From: Alphaproteobacteria bacterium | Lineage (GTDB): Bacteria > Pseudomonadota > Alphaproteobacteria > Micropepsales > Micropepsaceae | Assembly: GCA_003158585.1 (NCBI GenBank) | Contig: PMKE01000065.1 | Coordinates: 5,146 to 57,653 of the forward strand | DNA: 52,508 nucleotides | Direction: 5' to 3' | Shown: positions 19,299 to 33,463 of the stretch, in pieces | Numbering within the stretch: the first letter of the stretch is position 1 | Layout: each line of letters begins with the position of its first letter | Translations under genes and position numbers: made by a program | Notes under the pieces: generated by a model | What the model saw: the letters and a program-made list of their open reading frames with translations, nothing else | What the model was told of the DNA's origin: nothing | Databases searched by the model: none

Positions 19299-19838
19299 CT
19301 ACCCCACGATCCGAACTTCGGTATCAGCGACCTCGACGCGCTGTGCCAGCGCCCGTAGATGGTCGCGGCGGTAGCCGCCTCCATCGATGCGCATCCGCTC
19401 ACGGGCCGTCCTGCCGAACTTGGCGAGCATCGCTGGGGTGATCGCCTGCCCGGAGCCTTGAAGGGTGGCCTGGGCGCGCTCGGCATCGACCTGGGCTTGG
19501 TCCCGAGCTGCCTTGAGGCTTGCGATACGCTCCCGGAGGTCTGGGTCGTTCAGATTGGCTACGCCGTTTTCGATGGCATCGTACAGCCGCTTGAGCCGCG
19601 CGTCGGCCTCGGGGGCCCGCTTGTTGAGTTCGCCGATGTGCAGGCGGCGGCGCTCAGAGCGCTCCTGGCGGCGGTCGAGGACGGCGGCGAGGACTTCTTC
19701 CAGCCGGTCGGGCTGTAGCAGCCGGTCCGCGAAGTGATTGGTGACAAGTTCATCCAGTTTTGCCATTGGAATCGAACGGCCCTTGCAGCCGGTCTCTCCC
19801 TGCCGGGCCTTGATCGAGCACGTGTAGTAGCGGTATCG
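19299..19838 (-). pseudogene. Large serine recombinase, C-terminal fragment
   Basis: About 180 codons of the end of a large serine recombinase. The first part, YYTCSIKARQGETGCKGRSI, carries two Cys of the recombinase zinc-ribbon and the conserved Gly-Arg. RSIPMAKLDELV follows, and then a long charged coiled-coil region (RLEEVLAAVLDRRQERSERR and beyond), as in integrases and resolvase-like enzymes of genomic islands. The catalytic resolvase domain and the front of the zinc ribbon are absent. The frame continues upstream into the wrong frame of a GH79-like gene, so the open frame to 20327 is a chimera. This is a scar of a lost mobile element. Confidence 0.8.
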
Positions 19839-20496
19839 GGACCGGCGAAGGGTGCGCCAGGCACGCGTTTGCGCACGGCGGTGTAATAGCGCTGCCATTC
19901 TCCGGCGAACATCGCGTAGTCGTAACCGGCGGCGCGAACGCCGTTGCGGCTGAAAAGATCGGGCTCGTTGCAAAGCTGGAAGGCCACCAGCTTCGGCCCG
20001 ATGGTCCGCATGACGCAATCGGCTTCCTCTGCGGTGATCTCGGGGCCTTCGCCGCCCATGTTGAGGCCGTAGATCAGCCTCCATCCCGGCGCGTCGAGGA
20101 ATTCGCGCAGGTTGCGGATGGCGGCGGGGCCGACCGGGCGGCGCGGCGCGGCCATACGGCCGGTGTCCGGGCCATAGACCTTGTCGGAGGAACCCGGCGC
20201 ACCCTCGGTGGTCCACACACTGTAGGCGCTGGTATTGCCGCCGATGCGCAGCACGCCCGATCTGCCCAGCCGCCGGAAGAAGGCCGCAAGCTGAGTGTTC
20301 GCTCCGGATAAGAAACCTGGATTGCAAGCTGCGCGGTCTCGCAGCTCAATCCCGTGAAATCGGCCGGTACGGGATTGCCCTTGCTGCCGGGATGCAAGGT
20401 GACGCGCACCGAGGCCGGAGCTGCGAATGCACCGGTTGGAGTTAGCACCGCACCGGCAGCGCAGGCAGAAATGCGAAGAAACTCGCGCCGCTCCAT
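19839..20496 (-). pseudogene. GH79-like glycosidase, frameshifted and truncated
   Basis: The start is MERREFLRISACAAGAVL (ATG at 20496), a Tat-type signal, followed by VPADFTGLSCETAQLA. The reading then has to move to another frame near 20322, where NPGFLSGANTQLAAFF, VLRIGGNTSAYSVW and FQLCNEPDLF continue the protein; the last holds the expected acid/base Glu of a clan-A glycosidase. One missing base (T on the plus strand, near 20322) would restore the frame. The gene breaks off after PFAGPDTA at about 19838, where it meets the recombinase fragment. The family looks like GH79-type beta-glucuronidase/heparanase relatives. It is almost certainly inactive. Confidence 0.78.
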
Positions 20497-20628
20497 CCCG
20501 GCATCCGAACATCACACTGCCGGGTTGCCAAAGCACAATGCGTCAGGTCGCGGAGAATGTGAGTCGTATTTGCGAACGGGCGCGAGCCAGTATAGGCCTA
20601 TGACAAAGCTCTCCCGAAGGAGTTTTCC

Positions 20629-23798: not shown

Positions 23799-24383
23799 TC
23801 AACACAAGGAAATCTTGGTTGGCTTGAGAAGCGAATCAATTTCATCCTGCGACATGTTCGGTTCCAGGGCTACGCCGATATCCGCCGACAGATCGGTGCT
23901 TCTCCTGCCGACGCCATCGGGTGGGCCGTTGTTCTTGAACCGTCGGCACGGCCCGATATAGCTGTCCGACTCGATGAAGGGACGCGACGACTTCGACGAC
24001 CAGACAATATGATCGAACAACACGTTCGGCGCTAAGGGCTTGCTGACGACGATGTTTGCCCCGTTGTCGCGCACCGCGGACACATTGGACATCTGCGTGT
24101 ATCCGGTCAGGACCACGATGGGGATGTACTTGATTGCAGGGTTCGCCAATCGGCGTACCCAGCGAGCCAATTCTATTGCAGACATGTCCGGCAGCGTCAC
24201 CTCGCAGAGCAAGAGGTCGTAACGGCCGTTCGCGAGCTTTTTCTTCGCTTCCTCGCCTTGTTCCACTACCGTGTACTGGTTCAAGCCGAAACCGCGGAGA
24301 ATTTGGCTCAATATCTCGTTGGAATACTGATCGCAGTCGACGATCAGGGCCGAGATATGTGCGAAATTGAATTTCTCGTCCAC
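23799..24383 (-). CDS. Receiver-domain protein with Glu phosphosite and CheY-binding-like tail
   Basis: A 194 aa protein, last in the che operon, in the position I recall as cheYIII in Caulobacter. Residues 8-125 form a receiver domain: acidic residues Asp16/Asp18, Thr93 in VVLTG and Lys115 in VSKPL. The phosphoacceptor position reads LLLCEVTLP, with Glu61 (codon GAG) in place of Asp, so it probably cannot be phosphorylated in the usual way and may mimic an active state. After a linker the C-terminus contains MSQDEIDSLL (177-186), similar to the FliM N-terminal CheY-binding motif and the CheZ C-terminal SQDQVDDLL. The start is GTG at 24383. The role is inferred: a modulator of CheY or of the motor switch. 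Confidence 0.82.
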   Translation of the reverse strand: MDEKFNFAHISALIVDCDQYSNEILSQILRGFGLNQYTVVEQGEEAKKKLANGRYDLLLCEVTLPDMSAIELARWVRRLANPAIKYIPIVVLTGYTQMSNVSAVRDNGANIVVSKPLAPNVLFDHIVWSSKSSRPFIESDSYIGPCRRFKNNGPPDGVGRRSTDLSADIGVALEPNMSQDEIDSLLKPTKISLC

Positions 24384-24404: not shown

Positions 24405-24779
24405 TCAACCCCAATGCTCTTCCAGTGTCTCATCGTTCGTCGTCTTTCCGCCACCGCCATTCAGTTCCGCGCGCAGCCGCTCCCTGATGCGGAAGAACGG
24501 AATGGCGCCGATCAGGTCGTGCAACGCGTCCAGATCGGTCGAGCCCGTCTCCAGCCGCAGGGACAGCTGGTCGATAAGCCGTGCGTGCGCCTCGATATTC
24601 TGCGAATAGAGATCGAATCGCTGGAGCAGACCGATGGCATCCTTAGCGCCGGCGATCCCCGGATCGTCCGCCAGCATCTCACCGAAGCGAGCGGTTTCGA
24701 TCGCAAGATCGCGCAATTCGCCGGCGACACCCTTCAAGAGGCGCAGCGCAGCCGAACCCTCCAGCTTCGTGTCAGTCAT
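24405..24779 (-). CDS. Small helical che-operon protein, CheU position, CheZ-like motif
   Basis: A 124 aa protein that looks all-helical (SAALRLLKGVAGELRDLAIE, then LDALHDLIGA). By gene order it matches the gene I recall as cheU of Caulobacter, whose function I do not know. Residues 56-60 read DLYSQ within LLQRFDLYSQNIEAHARLI; CheZ phosphatases have DLTGQ (Asp143/Gln147) in a similar helix. This makes a CheY-P phosphatase role possible, but five residues can agree by chance. I chose the ATG at 24779 because it overlaps the cheD stop (8-base overlap); the open frame upstream of it is a shadow of cheD. The receiver gene follows 21 bases later. Confidence 0.72.
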   Translation of the reverse strand: MTDTKLEGSAALRLLKGVAGELRDLAIETARFGEMLADDPGIAGAKDAIGLLQRFDLYSQNIEAHARLIDQLSLRLETGSTDLDALHDLIGAIPFFRIRERLRAELNGGGGKTTNDETLEEHWG

Positions 24780-25377
24780 CGAAGAACTCCACATCCGCCG
24801 TTTCGGGTCTTCTGGCCTGCGTTTGCAGGGCACTGAGTTCGCGTTCGACAAGCTGCTGACCGGAGTCGACGACCTTAACCTGCCGCGCCCTTCCGGTTAC
24901 AGGGCTGTATTGGATCCGCCGTGCCATTTTTCCGCCGACATCTCCACCGACGACGGCGATGCTTTCGTCCTTCAGAAACTGCCGTGCGAATGAGGCGTTG
25001 CGCGATCCTACATCCGAAAGTGCCGCGACCACGTTGGCCCCGCCGAACAACTTGGCTTCAAGGCAGCGGCGGTCGCCGCCGCGTTTGAGGATGTCGTTGA
25101 TCAGAAGTTCCATCGCGTTGACGCCGTAGCATTGCGCTTCGCGATCCCGGCCGTCGCCGTTGGGCAGCAGGAAATGGTTCATTCCACCGATGCCGCCGGC
25201 CGGGTCGCGGATACACGCCGCGATGCACGAACCGAGGATCGTGGTCAGGACCTCGTTCTCCTCGGACGTCACATATGTGTCGCCCAGGGTGAGATGGACA
25301 TGCCAACAACCGTCGCGCGGATTGCGGAATCTTCGCAGCTTCCTTTCCTCGACCGTGGTCTCGATCATCGGCATCAT
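24772..25377 (-). CDS. cheD: Chemoreceptor glutamine deamidase CheD
   Basis: A 201 aa CheD. This family deamidates glutamines in chemoreceptors and in some species interacts with CheC. The catalytic residues are visible: Cys51 in TTILGSCIAACI and His68 in GMNHFLLP; a Thr in the same fold is expected near the ETK/GDT segment. AKLFGGANV and GGDVGGKMARR are further family motifs. The start ATG-ATG at 25377 lies 7 bases after the cheY stop. The C-terminus (about 165-201) extends past the usual domain and is charged. Confidence 0.93.
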   Translation of the reverse strand: MMPMIETTVEERKLRRFRNPRDGCWHVHLTLGDTYVTSEENEVLTTILGSCIAACIRDPAGGIGGMNHFLLPNGDGRDREAQCYGVNAMELLINDILKRGGDRRCLEAKLFGGANVVAALSDVGSRNASFARQFLKDESIAVVGGDVGGKMARRIQYSPVTGRARQVKVVDSGQQLVERELSALQTQARRPETADVEFFDD

Positions 25378-25384
25378 GAGGCCT

Positions 25385-25777
25385 TCATGGTGTCAGCGGG
25401 CCAAAGACCTGCTCGAGCTTCTGCTTGAGCACGGCGACGGTGAACGGCTTTGCGAGATAGTTATTGGCGCCGAATTGCACGGCACGTTTGACAAGTTCGG
25501 CGTCAGCGCGGCCGGTCAACAACACGAATCCCGTCGATTTCAGGACGGGGTCGGCGCGAACCGTACGCAGGAACTCGAGTCCGTCCATACCGGGCATGTT
25601 GAAATCCGAAAGGATGATGTGCGCCGGCGTAACCTTGAGGCACTCGAGCGCCTCCTGGGGGCTTGGATATTCGCGGACGTCAAGTATGCCGATCTGCTGC
25701 AGGCAAGATCGCACCAGCGTTCGCATTGTCAGCTGATCGTCGACGACGACGGCTTTGATCTTAGACACGGATGGCAT
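25385..25777 (-). CDS. cheY: Chemotaxis response regulator CheY (second copy)
   Basis: A 130 aa single-domain receiver. The acidic pair is in VVVDDQ, the phosphoacceptor Asp in [12 protein letters not shown], Thr in VLLTG and Lys in LAKPF, so all conserved residues of an active CheY are present. The start ATG at 25777 overlaps the end of cheB by 17 bases. In the Caulobacter order this is the cheYII position, between cheB and cheD. It is the likely partner of the motor and a possible target of the two atypical proteins at the operon end. Confidence 0.93.
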
Positions 25778-26813
25778 GGCACACCTTCTGCACACTCGAC
25801 TCGCATAGATCGAGTATCCCTTGTCCGATATGTTCCAGTCGCAGCTGCCTTTCGACGGCTCCAATCTCAAAAGCGACGCGCGGCATGCCGTAGACGATCG
25901 AAGTCTCTTCGTCCTGCCCGATGGTTGCCGCTCCTTGCTGGCGCATCTTCAGCAGGCCTGCTGCGCCATCGCGTCCCATGCCCGTGAGAATGACCCCGAT
26001 GGCATTGCGGCGGACGGCGGATGCCATCGATCCGAAAAGCACGTCGACGGAGGGGCGGTGCCCACCAAAGGGCGGAGCGGAGGTCAAGCGGCATCTCAGC
26101 GTACCAGTACCGACAATTTCCAGGTGAGTGTTCCCGCCAGGCGCGAGATAAACGTTGCCGATGGATAGGATGACGCCGTCCTTTGCTTCGCTCACGGATG
26201 GCTTGCAGAGACGATCCAGGCGCTGGGCGAAGCTTGTCGTGAAATGCGCTGGCATGTGCTGGGTGATGACGGTGGGCGGGCAGTTTTCCGGGAAATTGGA
26301 GAGGACGGTGATCAGCGCTTCCACGCCGCCGGTCGACGAACCGATCGCCACAATCGACTGTCCGGGATCGAAATTGACGCGTGTCGGTATGGGATTTCTT
26401 TCGACGTAAGGCCGTACGCGGGCGCGCGAGGCGGTCTTCACCTTCTCGCATAATTCGCGGCCGCTTTCTCCGAGGTTTGCGGCGACGTTGTCGGTCGGTT
26501 TCGAGAAATAGTCGACCGCTCCGATCTCGAGCGCAGAAAGCGTGACTTCCGCCCCTTTCTGCGTGAGCGTTGATACCATCACGACCGGCATGGGTCTCAG
26601 CCGCATGATCTTTTCGAGGAACTCGAGGCCGTTCATGTTCGGCATTTCAACGTCGAGGGTGATGACGTCTGGGTTCAATTCCTTGATCATACGGCGCGCT
26701 ACGGCGGCGTCTTGTGCGGCGCCGACCACCTCGATCTCTGGATCGCGAGACAGGATCGCGGTCAGCAGGCCGCGGATGGTCGCAGAGTCATCGACGATAA
26801 GGACGCGTCTCAT
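25761..26813 (-). CDS. cheB: Protein-glutamate methylesterase CheB
   Basis: A 350 aa two-domain enzyme that removes methyl groups from, and can deamidate, chemoreceptor glutamyl sites. The receiver domain ([27 protein letters not shown]) is followed by a linker and the esterase domain with its Ser-His-Asp triad: IGSSTGG, TQHMP and GMGRDGA. The ATG at 26813 overlaps the cheR stop (ATGA), so translation is coupled; an upstream in-frame start would add 44 unrelated residues. It opposes CheR in receptor adaptation. Confidence 0.95.
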
Positions 26814-27688
26814 GACTTGGCTCCCCGGCGGCGGTAGATTGTCTGTCCCACGAGATCGAAGGGATGGTTTGCAGTCGCGATGCGCTCGGAATGGCCTATG
26901 CAGAGAATGCCGCCTGGGCGGAGCACGTGGGCAAAGCGCCCCCAAATTTCATTCTGGGTCGCTTCGTCGAAATAGATCATCACATTGCGACAGAAGACGA
27001 TGTCGAACCGGCCGGTCATCGGCCAGTCGCGCAATAGGTTCAATTCCTTGAATCGAACCATGGAGCGCAATTCGGGGACGGCTTCAAAATCGGGATCTTC
27101 GCGGCGCGCGAGCGGCCGAAACCAGCGCCGCTTCAGCTCGATCGGTATGTTGCCCAACAGGCGCGACGCATAGACGCCGGCGTTTCCCCGGCGCAGCATT
27201 TCCGGATCGATGTCTGTCGCCAGGATCAGCAAGTCAAGCTCGCTTGCTTCCGGCATGACCTCCAAGGCGGTAAGTGCGATCGAATAAGCCTCTTCGCCCG
27301 ATGAGGTGCCGGCCGACCAGATGCGCAGTTTCGCGCCGTGACGTGCGGCCTCCAGCATCTCCGGAAAGACGCGCTTCTTGAGATATTCGAAGTGATGGGG
27401 TTCGCGGAAGAACCGGGTGACGTTGGTGGTCATCGCCGCGATCATGATCTGGCGTTCGTCCGCGCCGTCGGCGCCCTCGATCAAGGCGCAATATTCGCGG
27501 AAATTGCGTAGCCCGATGGCGCGCAGACGCTTGGCGAGGCGCGAATAAACGAGGTTTGCCTTGGTCTCGGTCAGTACGATGCCCACTTCCGAATGGACGA
27601 GTTCGGCGATCTGCCGGAAATCCGACCAGGTGAACGCGAATTCTCCGTCCGAGACGGCTAATTCCCGCGAGTGCACGCCGTTGCCCAA
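26810..27688 (-). CDS. cheR: Chemoreceptor methyltransferase CheR
   Basis: A 292 aa SAM-dependent methyltransferase that methylates glutamyl residues of MCPs. The N-terminal helical domain ([31 protein letters not shown]) is followed by the catalytic domain: [38 protein letters not shown] and [10 protein letters not shown]. The start is TTG at 27688 with GGAG about 8 bases upstream; a GTG four codons downstream is an alternative. It lies 11 bases after cheW. The MCP of this operon ends in DWTEF, which fits the pentapeptide to which CheR binds. Confidence 0.94.
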
Positions 27689-27699
27689 GGCAATCTCCG

Positions 27700-28182
27700 T
27701 CAGGCTGCTTGTTCAAAGCTCTTGTCGGCGGCGAACGACGAGGTGAGCTTGGTCATGCCGAGCAGCGTCACCATTCGTCCGTCGAGAACGGCGATCCCTT
27801 CGACATACTCATTCTGACTTTCGCGCATGACGTCCGGGACAGATTGAATCTCCGCCGACGTCACCGTCAGGATGTCCGAAACTGCGTCGACCAGAATACC
27901 GATGGTGCGCTCGCCCGCGTTGACCACGATGATGACATGCTTGGCCGTGGCTTCGGTGGTACCGAGCCCGAGGCGCGCCTTCAGATCGATCACCGGCAGA
28001 ACCATTCCCCGGAGATTGATGACGCCGCGGACGTAGTCGGGAACATGGGGGAGCGCCGTCGTGTCGGTCCAGCCGCGGATCTCGCGAATCGTCATGATGT
28101 CGGCGGCGAATTCCTGGCCGGTGGCGAGGAAAGTGATGTACTGGCGACGATCTTGGCCAGTCTCATGTTCGTTGAGGCTCAT
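27700..28182 (-). CDS. cheW: Chemotaxis coupling protein CheW
   Basis: A 160 aa CheW that joins CheA to chemoreceptors. The double SH3-like fold is indicated by QYITFLATGQEFAADIMTIREI, the hallmark VRGVINLRGMVLPVIDLKARLG, and ILVDAVSDILTV. The start ATG at 28182 lies 2 bases past the cheA stop. The C-terminal ~15 residues after TLLGMTKL are a short non-conserved tail. Confidence 0.95.
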   Translation of the reverse strand: MSLNEHETGQDRRQYITFLATGQEFAADIMTIREIRGWTDTTALPHVPDYVRGVINLRGMVLPVIDLKARLGLGTTEATAKHVIIVVNAGERTIGILVDAVSDILTVTSAEIQSVPDVMRESQNEYVEGIAVLDGRMVTLLGMTKLTSSFAADKSFEQAA

Positions 28183-28184
28183 GG

Positions 28185-30266
28185 TTATGCTCCGATAGCC
28201 TGTTGCATCTCACTGGAACGGCTTTTTTCGCGGCAGCGCGCCACGAGACCGTCGATGTCTAGGATTAGGGCCACGCGCCCGTCGCCGAGAATCGTCGCCG
28301 CCGCAATGCCTTCGATGTGACGGAAATTCGATTCGAAACTTTTGATGACGACTTGGCGCTGTCCGATTATGGAGTCGACCGCAAACGCAGTGCGCCCGAC
28401 ACCTTCGCTTTCGACCAGTATAACCACGCCCGCTGCAAGGTCTTCCGCGGCGTCCTCGACGCCAAGCAGATCGCCGACGCTGACCAGCGGCACATATCCG
28501 CCGCGCACGTTGAGAAGTCTGCCGTTCGATCCGAACGGGCGAATGTCCGATTCTTTCGGTCGCAGGCTTTCAATGATGTGTGTCAGCGGCAAGACGAACG
28601 TCTGGTTTCCGACGGCCACGACCATGCCGTCCAGCACAGCGAGCGTCAGGGGCAGGGTCAGACTGAAGCGGCTGCCCTTGCCGGCTACCGAGCCGATCAC
28701 GATGCGGCCGCCCAGGTCGACGATGTTACGGCGCACGACATCCAGACCGACGCCCCGGCCGGAGATGTTCGACACCTGATTGGCAGTCGAGAAGCCCGGC
28801 AGGAAGATCAGATTGTCGGTCTCTTCGTCGGAAAGGCTGGCGGAAGGCGAAATCAGTCCCTTTTCCACCGCCTTTGCGCGCACCCGCGCGCGGTCGATGC
28901 CGCGCCCGTCGTCCGTGACTTCGATCACGATCCGTCCGCCGCGATGCTCGGCCGACAGTGTCACTTTCCCTTCCGCAGGTTTGCCGGCTGACAGACGTTC
29001 TTCCGTCGTCTCCAGCCCGTGGTCTATGGCGTTGCGGATCATGTGGGTCAGAGGTTCGCCCAGACGTTCGATGACCGTCTTGTCGACTTCCGTCGCTTCG
29101 CCATCGAGGGTGAGATGGACTTGCTTGTTGGTCTGCGCCGCCAATTCGCGCACCAGCCTCGGCATCCGCTGGAATACCGACTTCACCGGTTGCGTGCGGA
29201 TAGCCATCACGCTTTCCTGCAGCTCGCGCAGCAGATGTTCGAGTTCGTTGAGACCGGCGCCGATCGTGGACGAACGGGCCTGGCCGCATTCCATGACGCG
29301 CTGTGTGAGCATGGCCTGGGTGATCACCAGCTCGCCAACGAGGTTCACCAATCGATCGACCTTGTCGAGGTCGACACGGATTGTCTGCTTTGTCGCCGCT
29401 TCCGCCGGCGCCTGGGGGGCGCCGGCGGTTTTCTTCTCCGTGGGCGGGCTTTCGGCCGGGGTGGGGTCGGCCGGTTGAATTGCGGGAGAAGGTGTCTGGG
29501 TTACGATTTCCAGAGCGGCGAGCGGCACGTCTTCGCGGATGTCGAGCTCACAATCGTCAGTCACAAACTCGAACACTTCATCGATCTTCGCGCGGTCGTT
29601 ACAGCCGCGCAGCACAATGTCCCATGCCAGATAGGCTTGGTCTGAATCGAGCGCTGCCAGTTCGGGCATTCCGGACAAGTCTGCGCGAACTTCGACCGAG
29701 CCGAGCCTGCCAAGTTCGCGAAGTAGCAGGAATGGCTCGTTGGCCTTGGCGTAAAGGCCGGGGTGAGGCGCAAACCGTATCCGCCATGTGCCTGGAGCGG
29801 GACCGGGCGCGTCGTCGATCTCGACATGGATCGGTGTGAACACCACACCCTCCATTTCGGCGGCCGCGGCGTCATCGCCGTCGGGCGAGATGCCGGAAAG
29901 AGCGTTCAATTCTTCTTTGACGTCGCCGTCCTGCACTTCGCCGGCACCGTTGCGCGCCGCGGTCACGTGGTCGGAGAGTACGTCGCCGGCCCTCAGCAGC
30001 ACTTTCACCACATCGCCGTTTGGTGCGAGCTTTCCCGAGCGAACGTGGTCGAGAACCGTTTCGAAGACGTGTGCGAAGCCGACGAGCACTTCGTACCCGA
30101 AGGCGCCGCCGCCGCCTTTGATCGAATGCACGGCGCGGAACACGGCGTTGATGACCTCGCCGTCGGCCTCGCCGTCTTCCATGGCGATGAGACCTTCCTC
30201 CATGGCCAGAAGAAGCTCGTCGCATTCCTGGAAATAGGTCTGTCTGATGGCTTCCATCGGATCCAT
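28185..30266 (-). CDS. cheA: Chemotaxis histidine kinase CheA
   Basis: A 693 aa CheA that phosphorylates CheY and CheB in response to receptor signals. P1 (Hpt) carries His47 in AVFRAVHSIKGGGGAFGY. A central region with receptor-adaptor-like sequence and a Pro/Ala linker (about 280-320) follows. P3 begins at IRVDLDKVDRLVNLVGELVI; P4 has the N box HMIRNAIDHGLE, the G boxes VTDDGRGID and GRGVGLDVVRRNI; P5 is the CheW-like end. I chose the ATG at 30266 (AGGA 8 bases upstream), giving MDPMEAIRQTYFQEC; the longer frame is not needed. It is expressed with the whole cluster. Confidence 0.95.
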   Translation of the reverse strand: MDPMEAIRQTYFQECDELLLAMEEGLIAMEDGEADGEVINAVFRAVHSIKGGGGAFGYEVLVGFAHVFETVLDHVRSGKLAPNGDVVKVLLRAGDVLSDHVTAARNGAGEVQDGDVKEELNALSGISPDGDDAAAAEMEGVVFTPIHVEIDDAPGPAPGTWRIRFAPHPGLYAKANEPFLLLRELGRLGSVEVRADLSGMPELAALDSDQAYLAWDIVLRGCNDRAKIDEVFEFVTDDCELDIREDVPLAALEIVTQTPSPAIQPADPTPAESPPTEKKTAGAPQAPAEAATKQTIRVDLDKVDRLVNLVGELVITQAMLTQRVMECGQARSSTIGAGLNELEHLLRELQESVMAIRTQPVKSVFQRMPRLVRELAAQTNKQVHLTLDGEATEVDKTVIERLGEPLTHMIRNAIDHGLETTEERLSAGKPAEGKVTLSAEHRGGRIVIEVTDDGRGIDRARVRAKAVEKGLISPSASLSDEETDNLIFLPGFSTANQVSNISGRGVGLDVVRRNIVDLGGRIVIGSVAGKGSRFSLTLPLTLAVLDGMVVAVGNQTFVLPLTHIIESLRPKESDIRPFGSNGRLLNVRGGYVPLVSVGDLLGVEDAAEDLAAGVVILVESEGVGRTAFAVDSIIGQRQVVIKSFESNFRHIEGIAAATILGDGRVALILDIDGLVARCREKSRSSEMQQAIGA

Positions 30267-30276
30267 GAAGATCGTC

Positions 30277-30645
30277 CTAAGGTGAAACGCGCCGGATGGC
30301 GGCCAACAGCTTGTCGGGATTGAACGGCTTGACGATCCAGCCGGTGGCACCGGCGTCGCGCGCGAGCCGCTTTTTCGCCGGTTCGCTTTCCGTGGTGAGC
30401 ACCAGGATCGGCGTCATGCGATTGAGCGAGCGACGACGCACATGCTCGATGAAACCGTAGCCGTCCATGCGAGGCATATTGATGTCGGTGATGATTACGT
30501 CCACCAGGCCGGCGGTTTCGAGTACTTCTACGCCGTGGATGCCGTCATCCGCCTGGATCACCGTGTGACCCGCATCGCTGAGCGCAAGTCTCAGCATATC
30601 CCGCATCGTTCGCGAATCGTCGACGGTGAGAATTGTTTTTGCCAT
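30277..30645 (-). CDS. cheY: Chemotaxis response regulator CheY (first copy)
   Basis: A 122 aa single-domain receiver, complete in its active residues: ILTVDDSRTMR, the phosphoacceptor Asp in IITDINMPRMDG, Thr-Thr in LVLTTE and Lys in IVKPFNP. The ATG at 30645 starts MAKTILTVDDS. It lies 10 bases upstream of cheA and 2 bases after the STAS gene, the cheYI position of Caulobacter-type clusters. WIVKPF and the length are typical of CheY proteins paired directly with CheA. Confidence 0.94.
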   Translation of the reverse strand: MAKTILTVDDSRTMRDMLRLALSDAGHTVIQADDGIHGVEVLETAGLVDVIITDINMPRMDGYGFIEHVRRRSLNRMTPILVLTTESEPAKKRLARDAGATGWIVKPFNPDKLLAAIRRVSP

Positions 30646-30647
30646 TG

Positions 30648-30944
30648 TCACGCCAGCCCCAGTGTATCCTTCAATCCGAGCAACGAGACGGTTTCCAGAA
30701 ACGCCGTTGACGGATTCACGATGGTCATGGAGGGACCGCCCGCCTTGGCGAACGCAGCGGCCCCCGCCACCAGGATTTGCAGGCACGGTGACGAGATACG
30801 CTGGACGGCGGCAGCGTCGATCGTCATGCTGCTCCCGCTCGCCAAACCCTGTTCGAGCTGTGCCTTCAGCGCACCCGCTTGCAGGAGGTCGACGACAGCA
30901 GGCAGAGAACTGCAGCCGTCCGACCCATTGCCGGTCTCGTTCAT
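30648..30944 (-). CDS. STAS domain protein of the che operon
   Basis: A 98 aa protein with the pattern of a STAS (anti-anti-sigma-like) domain: MTIDAAAVQRISSPCLQILVAGAAAF, then GGPSMTIVNPSTAFLETVSLLGL. The Ser-Ser in RISSPCLQ sits where SpoIIAA-type proteins carry the phosphorylated Ser. In Caulobacter a gene in this position is called cheX as I recall; it is not the CheX phosphatase. GGGGGG lies 6 bases before the ATG at 30944. Its job in chemotaxis is unknown; a kinase/phosphatase-switched adaptor role is a guess. Confidence 0.82.
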   Translation of the reverse strand: MNETGNGSDGCSSLPAVVDLLQAGALKAQLEQGLASGSSMTIDAAAVQRISSPCLQILVAGAAAFAKAGGPSMTIVNPSTAFLETVSLLGLKDTLGLA

Positions 30945-30971: not shown

Positions 30972-32876
30972 CTAGAACTCGGTCCAGTCTTCGGCCTCGA
31001 CTTCCGCCCGCTGTGCGACGGCCGCGACGGCGCGCCGCCCCGTACCGTTCGTATGACGAACGGCCTGGTGCGGACGCGGCTTCACCACCGGCTGCGGAAC
31101 CGTCTGGGGACGAGGGGCCGGCGTATTGTACGACGTGGGCCTTGAATCCGCGCCGACGTTAAAGAACCCAACTAGGTTCGACAGAGCCTGCGTTTCGCCG
31201 GCCAGATTTCGGACGGCCGCGGTGCTTTCTTCGACCATGGCCGCGTTCTGCTGTGTGACCTGGTCCATCTGGCCGACGGCAACGTTGACCTGCTCGATGC
31301 CGGTCGATTGCTGCTCGGCCGCCTGTGCCATTTCGGTAACCAGCGAGTTGATCTGCACGACCTGTTCGACGATGCGCTTCAAGGCCTTCCCGGATTCGCC
31401 GACATACTTGACCCCGGCGCCGACATGCTCGCCGGAAGCCTTGATCAGCGTCTTGATTTCCTTCGCCGCTTCGCTCGAGCGCTGCGCCAGAGCGCGAACC
31501 TCGCTCGCCACGACGGCGAAACCCTTGCCCGCATCGCCTGCGCGCGCCGCTTCGACACCCGCATTGAGCGCGAGAAGGTTGGTCTGGAACGCGATCTCGT
31601 CGATCACGCCGATGATGTCGGTGATCTGCTTGGACGATTGTTCGATCTCGCCCATAGCCTTGATCGCGGTCTCGACCACCCGTCCGCCTTCTTCGGCGGC
31701 GGATTTTGCGGCGACCACGCTGGTGCTCGCCTCTTTGGTGTTGGTGGCGGTCTTCTTGACGGTGGCGGTGATCTCTTCCAGAGCGGCGGCGGTTTCTTCC
31801 AGGCTGGCGGCCTGCTGTTCCGTGCGGCGGGAAAGATCATCGGATGCCTGCGAAATTTCGCCGGCGCCGGTGGAGATTCCGCTGGTCGAGGACAGCACGT
31901 TCTTCATCGTGTCCTGGAGGCGCGCCATCGCGGCGTTGAAGTCGTCCTTCAGCTTGACGAACGGGCCGATCAGTTCCGCGGTCACGCGGTGTGTCAGGTC
32001 GCCCTTCGCGAGTGCATCCAAGCCTGCGCCGACGCTCGAAACGATTGTCTGCGTCTGCTCGGCCTTTGAGCGCTCGGCGGCTGCCAACTGGTTCTTGAAG
32101 GCGGTCATCGCCTCGGCCAACTTGCCGATTTCGTCCTTCTGATCGGCGTTAGGAACATGGGCGTCGAGCTTACCGGCGGCCAAATGGCCCATCGCATCGG
32201 TCATCTCGACCAGCGGAGCGGAGACGGAGCGGATCAGCGTGAAGCCGGCACCGAAGCACAGCAGCAAGGCGAAGCCTATTGCTGCAAATATCCAGAACCG
32301 CGCGGATTCGAACGTGACTTCGCCTGCTTTACCGGCGGCATTCGCACCTTCCGTATTATAGGCAATGGCGCCATCGATCTCGTTCTTGAGTTCCGTGAAC
32401 GATTTCATCATCGGCCCCATGTAGTAGGCCACGGCGTCGGCTTGCCCTCTCGACTTGCTGATCGCGAGCTCGATCTCCAACATCGGCAAATAGGCGGCCC
32501 ATTTGCTTTCAATCTGGTTGGCCAGTGTGCGTTCCTGGTCCGAAACAGACAGCGCCCGGTATTTGCGCAGCGCTTCTCCGACGGCGACTTGCAGCAATTC
32601 CAGATTCTGCTTTCCCAGATCCTGAAGCTCGGGTGTGGAGAACTCCAGAACTGCGCCGTTCCACGAGCGGAACCGCGTAGCGGTGTATTGGACTTCGCCG
32701 AGGACGCGTGTGCCCTGAAGCCAATGGCTGCGCATCTCTTCGGCGTTAGTGTTCACCTGGGAGAGCCGTTGGGCGGCAAAGAGTCCAAGTGCTATTGTGG
32801 CGATTAGTACGCAGGCGAAAGCACTTACGACCTTGGTGCTCACCGAAAGATCTTTGAACTTCGTGGCGACGGACAT
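30972..32876 (-). CDS. Methyl-accepting chemotaxis protein
   Basis: A 634 aa chemoreceptor and first gene of the che operon. TM1 lies near residues 14-33 and TM2 near 183-205, enclosing a helical periplasmic sensor domain of the four-helix type. A HAMP domain follows TM2 ([22 protein letters not shown]), then a second linker and the cytoplasmic signalling hairpin with the tip [20 protein letters not shown]. The protein ends in [13 protein letters not shown] fits the xWxxF pentapeptide that tethers CheR and CheB. The ATG at 32876 has GGGGGATT upstream, and a longer TTG start is unlikely. The ligand is unknown. Confidence 0.94.
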
Positions 32877-33088
32877 GGAATCCCCCAAAAGTCTGTAGAC
32901 GCGTGCGCAATGACTGCAGTGCGCTTCTTGCTCCGTTCGCGCTTACAGTCGCACCGTCGCCATAAGGATTGGTGTAAACGAGACGACGCGCGAGCCGGCG
33001 ATCGATCGCGAAGAAAATCCCGATGCTGACCAATGTCAGGTTGCAATCGTCGACGATTATGCGTGAGCGCGAGATCTCGAAAGCGGGT

Positions 33089-33463
33089 TCATTTTCGTTT
33101 TGGGTTTACTCGCCGCCGCATTTTCTTCAGGTTGATATGCCTCCGGTTGAGGAAATTCCAAATGGTCCAAAGGCTGACATGAATGCCGCGCTTTTTCAGC
33201 AGCTTGCGTATTTCTTCAAGCGTCAGATCGGCATTCTTTTCAACAAGCTTGAGCAGCCAGTCGCTATGGTCCGCTAGCAACGCACGGCGATGGCCCCGCG
33301 CCGGGTTCGGTGCGACGCTTTTTTCATTCCGCCAGCGCCGTATCCATTTGACCGCGGTGCTTGAGCTCACGCCGAATACTTCAGCCGCGTGGCGGGCGGA
33401 CACTCCGCTTTCCACCAGCCGAACAAGCCGGATGCGCAAATCTTCGGAATAGGCCCGTGGCAT
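33089..33463 (-). pseudogene. IS630-type transposase, N-terminal remnant
   Basis: A 124 aa frame that matches the helix-turn-helix half of IS630-family transposases: MPRAYSEDLRIRLVRLVESG, EVFGVSSSTAVKWIRRW and LTLEEIRKLLKKRG, LWTIWNFLNRRHINLKK. The DDE catalytic half that should follow is missing; beyond the stop lies the promoter region of the mcp gene. Some IS630 elements encode the enzyme in two overlapping frames, but no second half is present here. I did not find terminal inverted repeats. It is an old, immobile fragment. Confidence 0.75.

Follow-up and report, generated by a model that had tools for sequence, protein, structure and literature searches.

The peptides of FliM and of the CheZ tail both bind phosphorylated CheY (CheY-P). 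A receiver protein that also docks on the FliM N-terminal peptide has been described in Caulobacter, where, according to the main text of Nesper et al. (2017; PMC5677366), CleA binds this peptide via its receiver under the control of c-di-GMP, and its Arg-rich region is needed. Phosphorylation was dispensable for CleA and the Arg residues were required, and the isolated Arg-rich region bound c-di-GMP only together with the C-terminal region. The paralog CleD, which has no FliM-like tail, bound the FliM peptide only in the presence of c-di-GMP. Among the Cle proteins CleA alone changes motor reversals, which it lowers through CheYII, and reversals are normal in strains lacking CleD or lacking every Cle protein except CleA. 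How CleA antagonizes CheYII, and why no other Cle protein controls reversals, was left at "possibly by competing" for motor sites. In the che1 operon cleA is the last receiver gene (PMC5677366).

The window, i.e., the whole stretch of 52,508 nucleotides analyzed here, carries a chemotaxis cluster transcribed in the order MCP, STAS protein, CheY, CheA, CheW, CheR, CheB, CheY, CheD, a 148-residue protein and CleA (Table 1). This is a Caulobacter-type che1 layout with cleA as the last gene. Just upstream of the cluster (33089-33463, minus strand) there is a short ORF whose product is similar to an IS630-type transposase over the N-terminal half of the latter. Elsewhere in the window (19299-20536, minus strand), a secreted protein is represented by its N-terminal part (MERREFLRISACAAG...), which is fused into the zinc-ribbon/coiled-coil end of an apparent serine recombinase, which is probably an insertion or deletion junction.

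Table 1. Features of the chemotaxis cluster and of its CleA protein, by position in the window.
Feature	Coordinates	Strand	Basis
MCP chemoreceptor, head of cluster	30972..32888	-	sequence
STAS protein, operon head, at the position of Caulobacter cheX	30648..30944	-	Pfam
cheYI-type CheY	30277..30786	-	Pfam
cheA	28185..30350	-	Pfam
cheW	27700..28182	-	Pfam
cheR	26810..27688	-	Pfam
cheB	25761..26945	-	Pfam
cheYII-type CheY	25385..25870	-	Pfam PF00072, position
cheD	24772..25377	-	Pfam PF03975
Gene at CheU/CheT position, 148 aa, directly upstream of cleA	24405..24851	-	position, FDxxxQ motif
cleA ortholog (194-aa ORF, GTG start, stop codon 23801-23799): receiver, Arg-rich c-di-GMP region and FliM-like tail	23799..24383	-	ORF, Pfam, alignments; operon place as Caulobacter cleA
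Receiver domain, residues 11-127	24003..24353	-	Pfam PF00072, alignments
Arg105, helix-alpha4 Arg common to Cle proteins (R111 in CleA, R113 in CleD)	24069..24071	-	alignment
Arg-rich c-di-GMP region, R134...YIGPCRR...GPPDGVGRRSTD164	23892..23984	-	alignments
Conserved tail block EPNMSQDEIDSLLKPT, residues 174-189	23817..23864	-	alignments
FliM/CheZ-type CheY-docking motif (predicted) MSQDEIDSLL, residues 177-186	23826..23855	-	pattern and profile searches

The last protein of the cluster is identified as a CleA ortholog, a CheY-like c-di-GMP effector with predicted c-di-GMP binding, because of the operon order cheW-R-B-Y-D-CheU-cle, the alpha4 Arg, the Arg-rich motif and an identity of 39-40% to CleA of C. 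vibrioides. The receiver model PF00072 matches residues 13-126 (E 1.8e-16), and Arg105 is invariant across the 43 aligned sequences. What an earlier note on this DNA had called a linker between receiver and tail is the Arg-rich c-di-GMP region; the CleA identity had been missed there as well. Both residues flanking this region, Arg134 and Asp164, are present; its first repeat reads YIGPCRR, with Cys in place of Asp, while the second is degenerate (GPPDGVGRR), as it also is in C. vibrioides CleA. In the receiver, Lys115 is retained and Val occupies the position equivalent to Tyr106. The phospho-acceptor position is taken by Glu61 (Asp or Glu among orthologs), which is in keeping with the CleA of Caulobacter, for which phosphorylation is dispensable. 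The same genome encodes a further close paralog of CleA outside the che cluster, on contig C137 (L002); it shares 57% identity and is tail-less.

The C-terminus of the window CleA reads EPN, then MSQDEIDSLL, then KPTKISLC (...EPNMSQDEIDSLLKPTKISLC) and matches the motif [LM]SQxE[IV]DxLL. The earlier note had seen MSQDEIDSLL at the end of a receiver protein and likened it to the peptides of FliM and CheZ. Translation confirms the former, with the motif at 23855-23826 inside the segment that had been singled out, and the likeness is borne out by the conservation of the tail, by the specificity of the motif, by the PDB search and by Pfam-confirmed CheZ ends in relatives. In the own 3.1 Mb genome, a degenerate DNA pattern for QxEIDxLL was found at two places only, the CleA tail and the N-terminal part of the only FliM (ILNQEEIDSLLGF), and a reversed control pattern gave no match in the same 3.1 Mb. 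In the genomes of 61 relatives the pattern occurred at 48 places, compared to one for the reversed control, and 46 of the 48 were FliM (39), CheZ-type C-termini (4; the two checked with Pfam were both confirmed as CheZ) or Cle tails (3). The other two were an unknown protein with two motifs and a probably non-coding frame. CheZ proteins of relatives (L248, L273, L274, L278) end with an identical type of motif, e.g., SQDEIDRLFES. When a profile of the tail was compared with all PDB sequences, the best match was the FliM peptide of Thermotoga (4iga_B, E 0.009), followed by the FliM of Salmonella (E 0.059), and no PDB sequence outscored these two; the E-values are modest because the motif has 10 residues. 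In a relative's genome (G044), a protein of unknown domain (L275) has a pair of FliM-like motifs at its end, SGQDEIDTLLSEID and SQAEIDALFD, and is possibly an undescribed CheY-binding protein.

The tail proved to be conserved in relatives, contrary to the possibility raised in the earlier note. The block EPN[ML]SQxxxDxxxxPT is retained in eight relatives whose whole proteins are 48-65% identical to the window CleA. Prevalence was assessed in a class-wide sample and in loci of the window's order collected by CheD, independently of the tail. In the latter set a Cle gene adjoins CheD at 13 of 20 loci, and 12 of these 13 carry the strict motif, the remaining one ending with the variant MSEAELGQML. 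By contrast, the tail was found in none of the 19 Cle proteins encoded outside che operons in the order (Fisher 6e-8, a value that overstates independence since the rows are related). Mean column entropy was 1.14 bits in the tail vs. 1.84 bits in the receiver, in an alignment partly selected on the tail, and it is the motif letters themselves that are conserved, beyond charge alone. In the class-wide sample, the strict motif followed the Arg-rich region in 12 of 94 Cle proteins, with near matches besides, vs. 0.27 expected from shuffling. On the grounds of its conservation, the genome-wide specificity of the motif and the first rank of FliM in the PDB profile search, the tail is very probably a peptide on which CheY-type receivers dock. 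One could instead suppose that the tail is unrelated to CheY and has a role in c-di-GMP binding, in stability or in localisation to the pole, its likeness to FliM being coincidental, and the dependence of c-di-GMP binding on the C-terminal region of Caulobacter CleA (PMC5677366, main text) would fit. However, the near confinement of the motif to CheY-binding proteins in the genomes scanned, its excess over shuffled tails and the conservation of its very letters make this explanation highly improbable.

As for its spread, the tail is present in Caulobacter, Phenylobacterium, Brevundimonas, Parvibaculum, Rhizomicrobium and a Hyphomonadaceae genome, a set seeded partly on the tail; the tail-seeded scan of genome contigs was used for spread and left out of prevalence. 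Matches in Pedobacter and Caballeronia were set aside, their similarity being confined to the receiver part. Within the window's order every tailed Cle protein is che-encoded, but this is not so class-wide: in distant alphaproteobacteria, the majority of tailed Cle genes lie away from che genes. In a tree computed from 163 Cle cores with the tail excluded, whose columns are few and many of whose forks are open, tail presence required 15 changes (at least 5 of them forced by well-supported branches), vs. 49.7 with shuffled labels. The tail thus appears clustered on the tree, yet gained or lost several times in Alphaproteobacteria. A comparison of tail and FliM coevolution has no power, because the FliM peptide hardly varies (in almost all genomes it reads LNQ[DE]EID[SN]LLGF). 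Cle genes outside che operons (L003, L004, L312, L315, L316) are often directly followed by a gene for a small helical Hpt-like protein (e.g., HDLKGQ, HEIRGL), which suggests a recurrent gene pair.

The product of the gene directly upstream of cleA matches no Pfam or NCBIfam model and carries RFDLYSQNI, in which FDxxxQ is conserved among orthologs, as in CheZ-type phosphatases. Both the position of the gene and this phosphatase motif fit what has been reported for CheT (PMC12654446). A split CheZ could be envisaged, in which the CleA tail would supply the CheY peptide to CheU/CheT, a protein with FDxxxQ and without a C-terminal peptide of its own, so that CheY-P is dephosphorylated. The adjacency of the two genes and the same C-terminal motif on the CheZ proteins of relatives agree with it. 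CheZ is also rarer in CleA genomes of the window's order (1/12 vs. 21/84 in the others), but this anticorrelation is not significant (p 0.29), and a complementary distribution of CheZ and CleA was rejected as a claim. Given further that CheU occurs without CleA in some relatives and that a contact between CleA and CheU is not known, we consider the split arrangement to be of low probability.

In our preferred reading, to which we assign a probability of roughly 0.55, the receiver of CleA sits on the FliM peptide while its FliM-like tail binds CheY-P in trans, resulting in fewer reversals. The receiver would respond to c-di-GMP in place of phosphate and dock on the N-terminal peptide of FliM, while the C-terminus bears a copy of that same peptide. 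Like FliM and the CheZ tail, this copy would capture CheY-P, most likely that of its own operon. The cheYII-type CheY of the window is the likely partner. CleA would therefore compete with CheY twice, the receiver occupying the docking peptide of FliM and the tail offering CheY-P a decoy, and high c-di-GMP would diminish motor reversals through both effects. Since the tail is near-identical to the peptide with which the motor catches CheY, CleA may present a decoy of the motor site. Binding in trans is favored because CleA, and not the other Cle proteins, suppresses CheYII-driven reversals. In a C. vibrioides strain four Cle proteins were detected, and CleA, which ends with EPNMSQEEINNLMKIAKVQI, is the only tailed one, the motif being missing from the other three; from this too we infer the decoy role. 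On the other hand, the antagonism in Caulobacter is already explained by receiver-only competition for FliM, which counts against a decoy tail. The short tail helix of the AlphaFold monomers, at a pLDDT of about 56, and the distance of most tailed Cle genes from che genes in distant alphaproteobacteria count against it as well. The fuller proposal, namely that CleA is gated by c-di-GMP and mimics the flagellar switch as a decoy whose receiver blocks the CheY site of FliM and whose tail traps CheY-P, with the peptide gained or lost repeatedly in Alphaproteobacteria, is a tentative one that we place slightly below even odds.

The tail might also act on CleA itself; the earlier note had suggested such a folding back beside the holding of a sibling CheY. 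By folding in cis onto the alpha4-beta5-alpha5 face of its own receiver, it could block binding to FliM until c-di-GMP displaces or regulates it. The receiver binds the same kind of peptide in FliM, the c-di-GMP site is located between receiver and tail, and the requirement of the Caulobacter Arg-rich region for the C-terminal region in c-di-GMP binding (PMC5677366, main text) would agree with such a switch. However, the receiver may be unable to hold the tail in its apo state, because tail-less CleD bound the FliM peptide only with c-di-GMP (PMC5677366, main text). AlphaFold monomers of both CleA proteins, which form a short helix over the motif (residues 179-185 in the window CleA and 177-183 in C. 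vibrioides CleA; pLDDT about 50-60), did not dock the tail on the receiver with confidence either, and cis docking seems to us rather unlikely. The same peptide could also be held by the receiver of the next CleA molecule, so that chains or coats would form at the motor in a c-di-GMP-dependent manner, or different Cle proteins would be linked. One molecule does hold both receiver and cognate peptide, and c-di-GMP-loaded Cle receivers bind such peptides, but the main text of PMC5677366 reports no CleA oligomers and we give such head-to-tail assembly little credence. If binding of CheY-P in trans is true, c-di-GMP would have a new entry into the chemotaxis circuit, by sequestration of CheY-P besides occupancy of the motor, and the peptide on CleA offers a testable answer to the question why CleA alone controls reversals and antagonizes CheYII.

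Compared to the known systems, the window protein most resembles CleA of Caulobacter crescentus (CC0440; Nesper et al., 2017; PMC5677366, main text) in operon position, receiver, alpha4 Arg and the Arg-rich region with its degenerate second repeat, and the tail block of C. vibrioides T5M6 CleA (EPNMSQEEINNLM) matches its own; it differs in the Glu at the phospho-acceptor position and the Cys in YIGPCRR. The C-terminal region of Caulobacter CleA was called merely variable, and a FliM-like motif is not found in the main text of that paper (PMC5677366). Likewise, in the open-access texts searched no Cle protein, nor any other receiver protein, was described as carrying a FliM-type peptide. With respect to FliM, MSQDEIDSLL fits the N-terminal CheY-binding peptide (LSQxEIDxLL), but here the peptide forms the C-terminal part of a receiver protein, and the residues after it are KPTK instead of GFD. 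The CheZ peptide shares both motif and C-terminal place, while CleA lacks the four-helix phosphatase domain. CleD, as a FliM-binding member of the Cle family, shares the receiver and the Arg-rich c-di-GMP region, but not the tail. The Cle proteins, with CleA among them, and the FliM/CheZ peptide have been described before; the FliM-type tail on a Cle receiver appears to be new.
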